Origin: Gigantopelta aegis
Taxonomy: Eukaryota > Mollusca > Gastropoda > Neomphalida > Peltospiridae
Direction: 5' to 3'
NCBI RefSeq assembly: GCF_016097555.1
Contig: NC_054704.1
Location: forward strand, 49,938,594 to 50,002,593
DNA length: 64,000 bases
The translations under genes were made by a program, and so were the position numbers. Below, piece after piece: positions 20,507-24,665 of this stretch (its first letter is position 1; each line of letters starts with the position of its first letter). The notes beneath the pieces were generated by a model. It saw only the letters and a list, made by a program, of their open reading frames with translations, searched no databases and was not told where the DNA came from.

Positions 20507-20514
20507 TATAAATA
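20507..20514 (+). promoter_or_regulatory. Candidate TATA box of the secreted-peptide gene
   Basis: TATAAATA lies about 30 bp before a plausible start near 20537. It is followed by a short untranslated exon ending at 20572 with the donor AG|GTAAGT. Confidence 0.4.
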
Positions 20515-20536
20515 CTGCAATAACCAGCGTAATAAC

Positions 20537-23500
20537 GCACCAGCTCTTATATCACTGTAGAACGATACCTAGGTAAGTTGATTTTATTTCGAAAACATTC
20601 TGTTATTCAAACATGTTAATCAAATATAATGTTATCCAACGGACTATAGAAAGGACTGCCAAATAATGATTTAAAACAGAAGACATTCTCACATTTTCTC
20701 GAACGTCTGTCTGTCTGTCTGTCTGTCTGTCTCTCTCTCTCTCTCTCTCTCTCTCTCTCTCTCTCTCTCTCTCTCTCTCTCTCTCTCTCTCTCTCTCTCT
20801 CTCTCTCTCTCTCTCTTTTAGAACTAATTTGTGGTTCCTGAGTCATGTTCGTACGGAATACAAAATATCAGGCCCGTAGCATGGTGGACATTATTGGAGG
20901 AACCCAATTGAATGAGCGCCGAAGGCTCGAGCTACTTGTGGGATCCGGGGGCATGATTCAAAGGTTATTTGTCCGTTACTGTAACTCTCGCCGTTAATCT
21001 CGATCCGTTAGTCTCGCTACAACTGTTACATTCAGTCGAGATGTAAAGGTTATAAATTTTTTTTTTAAATATTTGTTTTGTTTAAAAAGCCAAAATTACT
21101 GGGGGACGGCCCCCCCCCCCCCTGCCCCCTCCCCTGCTACGGGCCTGGATATCAAAATAAAACAAATAGATCATGATTTTATTACTCCTCAGATTCCTTT
21201 TCTGAGTTTTATTGAGTTGGTTGGTTGTTGTTCGTTTTTATTGTTATTTTGTTGGGTTTTTTTTATCCTTTTTATATTTTATGATTCTGAGAAACCTAAT
21301 TCGTACAGATAGACTTCTACATATACATAGTTTGTAATCTCGTTAATTACAGTATGATATATTTAAAGCCTTTTTTCCCCCATACTTCTTTTCTTTCTAT
21401 GTGTTGAGTGCATCGTTAAATAAAACATTTCTTTCTTTCTTTCTTTTCTTTCTCTTTTTTAAAATTAAAAATATTGTTACAAAACGAATGTGGTCTGTGT
21501 CGACAATTTTTAAACAAGTTTGTTTTATGAATTCGTTTTCATAAATAACTTTCTTATTCATTGCTTGTTTAGTTACATTGTACATGGCTTAACAATGAAA
21601 GACAAATTAGGTTTTAAAAAATGAAAAACAAATTAGGTTAGGCCTACATTAATATTAATATTAAAACTACAATTTTTAAACAAGTTTGTTTTAAGAATTT
21701 GTTTTTCGTAAATAACTTCATTTCCATGGTTGGTTGTTTAGTTACATTGTACATGGCTTAACAAAGAAAAACAAATTAATATCGAGTCTTTTTCATCTTG
21801 ATTAAAAAAGATATTATAAAATAAAAAAGGTACTTTTTCGTATTTTCCCAACTGGCTGCTAGAGATTTTCAAAGCTATCTTAACGCTACGATATCGTAAA
21901 ACTTTTGTAAGCTGTGACGTCACAACGACGCATGCAATCGTCTACAACGGTTTTACGATATCGTAGCCCCAAGATAAAAGGAAGGAAATGTTTTATTTAA
22001 CGACGCACTCAACACATTTTGTTTTACGGTTATATGGCGTCGGACCCTAAGATAGCTTCGACACGCTGGGCCCTGTAGTGTATGTACAACGAAAACGAAG
22101 ACGAGAGTAGACGGGACAGTAAAAAAAAATCAAAAAAAAATCAAGGTCTCAATAATGTAGGCATAAGAATATTAGAGCAAAACCTCAAATTCAGGCAAAA
22201 ATTATAAATATTCGGGCAAAATGTGCTAACCTGAGACCTTTTTGCCATGTATTTCCACCATTCGACCCTCAAAATTAGTTGTAATCCATGTAAAAAGGCG
22301 TAGTAATCGATTCGTTTGCAACCCTATATCTATGTAGGTGTTCGGTAGTAATACTAATATGAATAAATGTTGTTATCCAGATTCGGGCATTTTCGTTTAA
22401 TTTGGGCAAAAGTCAGCCTGCCCCCTATAAAAATGGGAGTCCGTACGCCTATGAATGTAGGGTCTTTTCTATCTAAAAGGGCATTTTTAAATTATGAAAC
22501 CGTCATGTATTCGGGTTTTTTCATGGTGGTGACATTTTACCTCTTGAAAACCCCCATCCCCACCCCCAGTTAGATGGGAGGGTATAGTCCTGTGATGAAA
22601 CTCGTCTTTATTAATTCTTTAATTCATTCATTCGTTGATTTCAGACTACCAATATGCTGAAGCTATTCCTGGCACTGGTCGTTCTGGTGGCATTAGTCCA
22701 AGTATCACTGTGTCACTTGCCGTACCCGATGATCTATCCTCCGTTCCCGACATACCCGACCTTCCCCGGTGCCTTCCCCGGTGCCTTCCCCTGGTATATG
22801 CATGAAATGTTGGATTACCGTGAGTAATGATGTCACAGCTAACTAAAACCCGGACGCATATCTCTGCTATGATTCCGTAATGTATGCTGATTAAACAGGG
22901 GTAGGCGCCATCGTATACGATGCAGTGGCGTAGAAAGGTGCAAAAAAAAAAAAGGGGGGGGGGGGGAGGGGACACACACACATACACACACACACACACA
23001 CACATACATATATATATATAAATATAAATATATATAAACACCATAGCTGCTGTTACTGGATCAAGAAAAGTGTGCCCACCGCTTCCTACACCAGTGCGAT
23101 GGGGGTGGGGATGGGAGGAGGCGGGGGGGGGGGGGGGGGGGGATTGCCGTAGTGGAGATAATATGATACCGGGAACGACATTTGTTTGGCCGACTTAAAA
23201 CAAAAAAAATGTCGGCCGTCAGTGGGAAAACAGATTTGCGCGCAAATGGCCTCAGACCACAATTAATTTCGCTATATGTTTCTATATAGCCTTAGTGGCT
23301 ATAACATTTTTATTAATATCAGCAGGCCCGTGAAGTTTTGTATGTACCTTTGCCTGCATGGGGGACACACACCCTGAAAAGGACAACCCCTGTTGTCCAG
23401 CTCTTTCTCCCAGCATATTGGTTTAAACAGACACACCCTCTAAACCAGGCCGGAGTACACCCATTTTACACAAAAAGAACTACTTTTGCATGGGCCGGAA

Positions 23501-24665
23501 TTACCACAAACAAGTCTTCAATGTCAACAAGTTACACATGTTTACAAACTACATGCTATCCCCTGTCACTTCAGTCAAACAGTTGCCACTTCATAGCTGT
23601 CTGCCATGAAATAATCACAGTCAAACAGCAGACTACTTGCGCGGTCAAACTTCCGGATTTTGGACAACCAAATGGGAAGATAACTGTAATCTGAGGCCAA
23701 ATATCACAGAGATATGCGCTCTCTCGTCGGAAACGAGAACTGATTTATCGTCATCAACACCATTCAAATAGCATTGCGTTAAATTCTGGACTTTATTAAA
23801 GTCTAGACTAAGTTTTATAAGCACGGACCATGACGTTGCACTGTTTGAAGGAATCGCAGATAACGGTGTAATTACACGACTGTTCCTCATGGGGAAGGAC
23901 GTAGCCCAGTGGTAAAAGCGCTTGTCTGATGCGCGGTCGATCTGGGATCGATCCCCGTCGGTAGGCCCATTGGGGTATTTCTCTTTCCAGCGTGTTTCAG
24001 ATCCAAATCCCATGTGAATTTCAGAACATCGTCCAGACAGTGCACCACGACTGGTATATCAAAGGCCATGGTATGTGCTATCCTGTCTATGGGATGGTGC
24101 ATATAAAAGATCCCTTGCTACTAATGGAAAATGTAGCGGGTTTCCTCTCTGAGACTATATGTCAAAATTACCAAATGTATGTGCGCCCGCCCACTATAGC
24201 GTGTATCACCCTACACATAACTACACACACCTATACACGCATTCACACACACGCACACGCATTCACACACTACACTACACTACACTACACTACACTTCAC
24301 ATATCGTTCCTACGGGTATGTTTTATACATTGTGTATTATACTTAGGTTTGACTTTATCTGTTTAGTTTGTTACTGTAAGTTTGTTATCGTGTTTATTGA
24401 CCACAGTTAATTCATATTTTTAGTTATTTAGTTTACAGTGATGATGTGGGCTTTTTTATTATTATTCCTTTTGCAGCAAGACCAATGGGCAGATAAGCGA
24501 CATGGTGGCAGACGGATCTGTTGACAGTGGTAAAGGGAAATTAGAAAGCGAAACCATCGGTGACTGCTATAAAGGGACCAATGACATTTATATAATGTGA
24601 CACGCGACATTTTGGTCGTTGTGACTCACTCATTGTCGGTGTAATAAATCGATTGTGCCGACCAT
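20537..24665 (+). CDS. Three-exon gene for a 61-aa Pro/aromatic-rich secreted peptide precursor
   Basis: Exon 1 (about 20537-20572) is untranslated and ends AG|GTAAGT. Exon 2 (22645-22819) follows a good acceptor (TTGATTTCAG) and carries the ATG at 22654. Exon 3 starts at 24477 after CCTTTTGCAG, gives the stop TAA at 24494-24496, and has AATAAA at 24643-24648. The 61-residue product starts with a clear signal peptide, MLKLFLALVVLVALVQVSLC. The predicted mature part of about 41 residues is rich in Pro, Phe, Tyr and Met, with YPPFPTYPTFPGAFPGAFP, no Cys, and the end DYPRPMGR. The terminal Gly-Arg could be trimmed and amidated, as in neuropeptides (inference). I recognise no family. It might be a neuropeptide, an antimicrobial or a shell-matrix peptide. 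If intron 2 is not removed, the frame still stops after 57 residues at 22825-22827. Intron 1 is full of MITEs; intron 2 holds a SINE. Confidence 0.6.
20706..20817. repeat. (GTCT)n(CT)n microsatellite
   Basis: Six GTCT units, then over 40 CT units. It lies in intron 1 of the peptide gene. Confidence 0.95.
20871..21148. mobile_element. MITE with CAGGCCCGTAGCA ends and a C run
   Basis: CAGGCCCGTAGCA at the left and TGCTACGGGCCTG at the right are perfect 13-bp inverted repeats. A run of about 13 C lies near the right end. Confidence 0.75.
21399..21445 (+). mobile_element. SINE tail fragment
   Basis: Only TGTGTTGAGTGCATCGTTAA and the TTTC repeat remain; strongly 5'-truncated. Confidence 0.75.
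21446..21862. repeat. Imperfect tandem repeat of intron sequence
   Basis: AATTTTTAAACAAGTTTGTT and TTAGTTACATTGTACATGGC occur at 21505-21590 and again at 21670-21760, a duplication of about 165 bp. Confidence 0.6.
21863..22064. mobile_element. Palindromic MITE, second copy, with a SINE insert
   Basis: The arms TTCAAAGCTATCTTAACGC and CTAAGATAGCTTCG match the element at 6008-6135. A 5'-truncated minus-strand SINE tail (about 21977-22043) interrupts the right arm, and CCAAGATA/CTAAGATA flanks it. Confidence 0.75.
22170..22455 (-). mobile_element. Dispersed element, inverted relative of 25377-25685
   Basis: Shares CAACATTTATT, GGGTTGCAAACGAATC and ATAGGCGTACGG words with 25377-25685, in opposite orientation. 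GGGCAAAA repeats occur at both ends. Confidence 0.65.
22924..23155. repeat. Poly-G/CA-rich repeat beginning CAGTGGCGTAG
   Basis: A-run, G-run, CA and TA repeats, then a second 18-G run at 23125-23142. The left end is of the GGCGTA type. It lies in intron 2 of the peptide gene. Confidence 0.5.
23650..24190 (+). mobile_element. SINE variant with extended 5' flank, plus strand
   Basis: The SINE proper begins at about 23890 (GGGGAAGGACGTAGCCCAG) and carries the same extra segment (GTTTCAGATCCAAATCCCAT) as the minus copy at 17553-17945. The shared flank CGCAGATAACGGTGTAATTA lies just upstream. How far the unit extends towards 23650 is uncertain. Confidence 0.6.
24190..24298. repeat. CA/TACAC simple repeats
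   Basis: Irregular ACAC units followed by TACAC repeats. Confidence 0.85.

Follow-up and report, generated by a model that had tools for sequence, protein, structure and literature searches.

We have analyzed a stretch of 64,000 nucleotides of the Gigantopelta aegis genome (contig NC_054704.1, C6 below, positions 49,938,594 to 50,002,593 of the forward strand), which as a whole will be called the window, and in particular a putative gene found between its positions 20507 and 24665, the window gene. An earlier note on this DNA had proposed here a gene of three exons whose product would be a small secreted peptide, possibly amidated. Our analysis indicates that such a gene, believable in its structure and coding for a small secreted protein, is probably real. 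Its features, in window positions, are the following.

20507-20514, plus strand: TATA box (TATAAATA), read from the sequence
20537-20572, plus strand: exon 1, non-coding; 5' end approximate, placed from the TATA box; donor AG^GTAAGT at 20572/20573
22645-22819, plus strand: exon 2, with 9 bases of 5' untranslated region, the signal peptide and a Pro/Phe/Tyr-rich body; its start and end are alike in four related loci (A, B, C and D, see below)
22654-22713, plus strand: signal peptide MLKLFLALVVLVALVQVSLC, judged, as in the relatives, by hydropathy and kinship and not by a dedicated predictor
22760-22791, plus strand: 12-base tandem repeat encoding FPGAFPGAFP, 2.7 copies with 100% matches
24477-24665, plus strand: exon 3, with the last codons PRPMGR (using one base of exon 2), the stop TAA at 24494-24496 and the 3' untranslated region
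24643-24648, plus strand: AATAAA polyadenylation signal, 17 bases before 24665

The splice sites, the upstream TATA box and the AATAAA had all been claimed before and are all present in the sequence. Exon 2 lies between the acceptor GATTTCAG^ACTACCAATATG (22644/22645) and the donor TACC^GTGAGT (22819/22820), and exon 3 begins at the acceptor CCTTTTGCAG^CAAG (24476/24477), located after a T-rich tract. The predicted splicing would join the exons into a frame of 61 residues without any upstream ATG, with exon 2 ending in phase 1, one base past its Asp-Tyr codons. The start of the gene has to be moved from 20507, where the TATA box begins; exon 1 would begin about 25-35 bases past the box and measure some 30-40 bases. 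No other TATA-to-GTRAG unit of the form searched for lies within 6 kb on the 5' side of the ATG.

The 20-residue signal-type start is followed by a mature part of 41 residues, with 11 Pro, 5 Tyr, 4 Phe, 3 Gly (7%) and no Cys, with two Arg and without Lys (isoelectric point, pI, 6.9). The signal-type start, the Cys-free body rich in Pro, Phe and Tyr, the FPGAFPGAFP repeat and the C-terminal Gly-Arg that had been described are all seen in the spliced frame. Pfam-A gave nothing over the gathering score for this protein (one match, to a frog skin peptide propeptide, had an expectation value, E, of 0.97 and 9.9 bits against a cut-off of 27), the best match in a search of solved structures reached only E 0.46, and the single literature search made for the string FPGAFPGAFP found no paper.

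We compared the protein with its own genome (1,149 Mb in 5216 contigs). At E up to 10 there were four matches, including the protein itself. The second was a stop-containing stretch of contig C10 whose DNA looked repeat-like by eye, the third was gene B, on the same contig as the window gene and ~249 kb away, with a score not significant alone, and the fourth a simple repeat (E 2.8). On the minus strand gene B reads TTTGCAG^ACTATCATCATGCTGAAG, and its encoded protein is MLKLVVGLVLVLALVEISLAG and then a Gly/Tyr-rich body with GDDDMFDYG at its end. When B was used for the search, six matches appeared, four of them at C6 49707293-49741250 (B, A, C and D) and two elsewhere (E 0.10 and 0.27); with A the same four were recovered together with two others (E 0.12 and 0.28). 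The relatives occupy C6:49707293-49741382, 220-254 kb from the window gene, and D carries an in-frame TAG, i.e., it is a pseudogene as assembled. Judged from sequence, the window gene and A-D are a five-copy family on one contig, with four open genes and one stop-containing copy. The earlier note recognised no family; relatives do exist in this genome. A, B and C gave no Pfam match up to E 1. The family was not seen in the literature searched, which is no proof of its absence from print. We read 264 kb directly (200 kb upstream and the window), the ~99 kb between them and the far flank being covered by the whole-genome searches.

The window gene and A-D have in common the start, an acceptor followed by ACT-N-ATGCTGAAG and a 20-residue signal peptide, and the end of exon 2, Asp-Tyr with a phase-1 donor. 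A, C and D start as TTTCAG^ACT(C/T)GTCACCATGCTGAAG and close exon 2 with GATTACG^GTGAGT, the window gene with GATTACC^GTGAGT. In B (within C6:49710001-49720000) the sequence is GATTACG^GCAAGT, with GC in place of GT, indicating either a GC-AG intron or an end by read-through to KWSRL. Over the last 20 bases of exon 2 the window gene is identical to B at 14 and to A at 11. The signal peptide plus one residue is identical at 11 of 21 positions to A and likewise to B, and these scores were reached by 1 and 0, respectively, of 100,000 shuffles in which the first three residues were kept. In the DNA of the signal peptide 40 of 63 bases are identical to A, and 13 of 21 third codon positions are equal, which points to common descent beyond a mere likeness in signal-peptide style.

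The tails are less alike. Exon 3 of C (GRRHAAGAIY) and D (GRRHAAGAMY) was located by a filter for pyrimidine-rich acceptors, the two stretches being 97.8% identical, while that of A (GRRMAAGTGVGVIG) was chosen by eye from a weak tblastn match (E 5.9) and its acceptor failed the filter. All three share the phase of exon 3 of the window gene; an exon 3 for B was looked for and not found. Between the window gene and A, 9 of the first 12 bases of exon 3 are equal (0.001 by shuffles, 0.033 at 16 bases, the length having been chosen afterwards), and local alignment scores of this exon were reached by 242 of 2000 shuffles for A and by 2000 of 2000 for C. We dropped the idea that the Gly-Arg end was a one-base shift of the MAAG tail of A, exon 3 similarity being too weak.

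A chance open frame at a locus that is not a gene is favored by the modest single sequence scores, such as that of B. Against it stand the likeness of the acceptor-to-start region and signal peptide to four loci on the same contig and, for the signal-peptide pattern at 0-1 mismatch, the absence of any further match in 1.15 Gb. The pattern CAGACT-N(5-8)-ATGCTGAAG has eight matches in the genome, five in the family members and three at places that lack a signal-peptide frame; its reversed control has 22, so that the count by itself is not raised. Actually, 22 matches per genome would give ~0.005 expected per 254 kb (our own arithmetic), and the five family members sit within 254 kb. The 29-base signal-peptide pattern ATGCTGAAGNTNNTNNTNGNNYTGGTCNTN was found at 30 places with up to two mismatches (15 for the control): with none in A, B, C and the window gene, one in D and two in the 25 others, several of these plainly repetitive. 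At 0-1 mismatch there are five matches in 1.15 Gb and all five are family genes. Both patterns were derived from these very genes, and the informative part is that nothing else appears at 0-1 mismatch. We also took every ATG start lying no more than 25 bases from an AG and compared it with the signal peptides of A and B. On both strands of the window (n=1848) the window gene scored 52 and the next start 19; in the 200 kb upstream (n=6001) only A, B, C and D, whose scores are matches to themselves or to a near copy, outscored it, the best other reaching 24. Over the 264 kb (n=7849) it is fifth after A-D, with 52 versus 24 for the next. A similarity-blind scan for an acceptor-like AG and a hydrophobic start gave 16 rows, in which the top four hydropathies (3.42-3.49) are those of the window gene, A, B and C and the next is 3.09. 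A looser pattern for distant members, CAGACT-N(4-10)-ATGYTNAAR, was uninformative (419 matches versus 339 for the reversed control). We consider a chance frame extremely improbable.

Another possibility is that the window gene is a decaying copy, a family member that has lost the Gly/Tyr repeat and is no longer used. It is a lone divergent copy, 220-254 kb from the others and with the repeat body gone, and the family does yield dead copies, as D illustrates with its in-frame TAG. Nevertheless, the open frame, the splice sites, the TATA box and the AATAAA are all present despite 23 of 63 base differences from A in the signal peptide, and decay seems to us decidedly unlikely.

A, B and C contain 35-48% Gly and 20-30% aromatic residues, with pI 9.45-9.64 (B with its read-through tail), and display GGY-type repeats, a basic patch (HRRRR in A, C and also D; RPRR in B) and an acidic-aromatic end, the acidic motif of the relatives being GDD. 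Secreted structural proteins, as in shells and other materials, have such a make-up. Besides, the genome has five matches over cut-off to mollusc-type haemocyanin domains (PF14830, which we take to be a molluscan family), found in none of 14 control genomes. Taken together, these two observations make a matrix role, with shell or periostracum first, the best-supported guess; "matrix peptide" was one of three options in the earlier note. We favor, at somewhat better than even chances, a secreted matrix family, of shell or periostracum perhaps, of which the window gene would be a divergent member poor in Gly.

Gly-rich secreted proteins are presented as typical of biological materials in PMC4944945, where the definition of silk-like proteins asks for a signal peptide and, past it, 80 residues of which Gly makes up 25% or more. 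A (0.54 of 80) and C (0.56 of 80) satisfy this rule, and B has 22 Gly in 63 mature residues. The shematrins and KRMPs of pearl oyster shell matrix are likewise low-complexity secreted proteins, a likeness of composition. Shematrin genes are arranged in tandem according to PMC4759782, and such families evolve fast (PMC4897951). KRMPs combine basic and Gly/Tyr modules as A-C do, and KRMP-3 binds chitin through its Gly/Tyr part (PMC4498902); however, KRMPs are Lys-rich and A-C Arg-rich, and the window protein has no Gly/Tyr module. Prismalin-14, listed as GY-rich and D-rich in a portion of PMC4660305, resembles A-C in part and by description only, and both modules are missing from the window protein. 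With A-D themselves the window gene shares the acceptor and start context, the 20-residue signal peptide and the phase-1 Asp-Tyr end, and its exon 3 tail is short like those located for A, C and D. Its body, in contrast, is a short Pro/Phe/Tyr stretch, a dibasic site is missing and the tail is a different one.

If the matrix interpretation is right, the signal peptide would export the protein from an epithelial cell, and cleavage after residue 20 would free a 41-residue aromatic, Pro-rich, Cys-free chain, probably unfolded. This chain could join an extracellular material alongside the Gly/Tyr-rich relatives, held by aromatic stacking, by chitin or mineral binding or perhaps by oxidative (quinone) cross-linking of Tyr. 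As a first guess the material would be mantle-made shell or periostracum. The window protein may be a binder or a cross-link substrate and not a filament former, and its terminal Gly-Arg would be incidental. What the sequences show directly is the gene structure, the signal-type start, the kinship and the cluster, whereas splicing, secretion, tissue, partners and chemistry are inferred.

Several observations weigh against the matrix interpretation. The GGY-type repeat body is absent from the window protein, which with 3 Gly in 41 residues fails the 25%-Gly silk-like rule. B was only third in the search with the window protein (E 0.42), behind the repeat-like C10 match (E 0.023); we rest kinship on architecture and position as well as on score. 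Only 8 of 21 third codon positions are equal to those of B, by our estimate little above unrelated DNA. Alignment established no sure exon 3 homology, and a counterpart of the TATA-exon 1 unit was searched for upstream of the relatives and not found. Among 22 of the 66 long frames of the upstream 200 kb that were inspected by eye, no shell-type gene was seen, one of them being a low-complexity repeat frame. Finally, A and C carry Gly-Arg-Arg after FDY, which in a precursor would be a classical amidation site, each matches one neuropeptide mining motif (RRRR at 26), and A ends in a bare Gly.

These last points, with the C-terminal Gly-Arg of the window protein, favor an amidated signalling peptide, the leading idea of the earlier note. 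In such a case the signal peptide would be removed, the Arg trimmed and the Gly converted to an amide, giving a 39-residue peptide ending in PRPM-amide, and the FDY-Gly-Arg-Arg of the relatives could give FDY-amide. The cue for it had been Gly followed by a basic residue as an amidation signal. The Gly-Arg end is real, but the window protein is the only one to have it: A ends in GVGVIG, C in GAIY, D in GAMY and B, if read through, in WSRL, so that ends vary among relatives and none is Gly-basic. The window protein has no basic pair, though one internal single Arg, followed by Pro, is there, and neither it nor B contains any of the ten cleavage motifs for mining molluscan neuropeptides given in PMC6425005. 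Moreover, it would be one long peptide whose core is not repeated, and in the relatives the GGY repeats have a structural look, which argues against A and C being precursors. We judge the amidated peptide very unlikely, and a matrix role likelier than a hormone role. Still further down, and highly improbable, is a hormone born from a matrix protein, in which a duplicated Gly/Tyr-repeat gene lost its repeat and gained the Pro/Phe/Tyr body and the Gly-Arg end, becoming an amidated signal.

The clustering, the small size, the signal peptide and a body altered between copies would also fit an epithelial antimicrobial peptide. The cluster would then consist of small, rapidly evolving secreted peptides rich in Gly and Tyr and would work like the nlp-29 cluster in the skin of Caenorhabditis elegans, whose peptides are likewise Gly/Tyr-rich. 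The window peptide, however, is near neutral by its pI and its two Arg without Lys, and such a charge is unusual for a membrane-active peptide, which makes this possibility unlikely. PMC2453101 describes the nlp-29 cluster as six such genes that are diversifying and that respond to infection and wounding by induction; the likeness consists of small secreted peptides that are clustered and diversify by duplication, there in a nematode.

Other features were detected around the family and in the window. Near the family, at C6 ~49832109-49833489 on the minus strand, there is a low-complexity open frame of 460 residues with repeats of the type DRSLDDRDVLPSSQ. In the window, a frame at 1906-2241 (plus strand) weakly resembles the CCDC138 C-terminal domain of Pfam (E 0.00055; its 19.6 bits fall short of the cut-off, 26.6) and is possibly an exon of this gene. 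A non-LTR (long terminal repeat) retrotransposon at 28157-34017 (minus strand) has two long open frames. The first, of 1157 residues, contains the endonuclease and reverse transcriptase domains; the second, of 665 residues, has only weak matches below cut-off, several of them to coiled-coil families. Two inverted arms of ~4.6 kb each (40110-44709 and 56630-61217) consist of ten pieces 97-100% complementary, the longest of 1170 nucleotides at 100%. In the ~12 kb between them, frames for RNase H, H2C2 and integrase of gypsy type occupy 50755-52542, and the letters are N for a run near 45.5-45.7 kb. The structure would be one of three things, a large palindromic element, a nested insertion or an inverted duplication of the assembly.

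The window gene is an actual example of change within a family of clustered secreted proteins: the start of the signal-peptide exon, the splice phase and the Asp-Tyr junction are kept, while the low-complexity body has been replaced and the Gly repeat is gone. Members of this kind escape composition screens for shell or silk-like proteins, the 25%-Gly rule catching A and C but missing the window gene. At the same time, when a small secreted frame ends in Gly-Arg, this by itself speaks only weakly for a neuropeptide.

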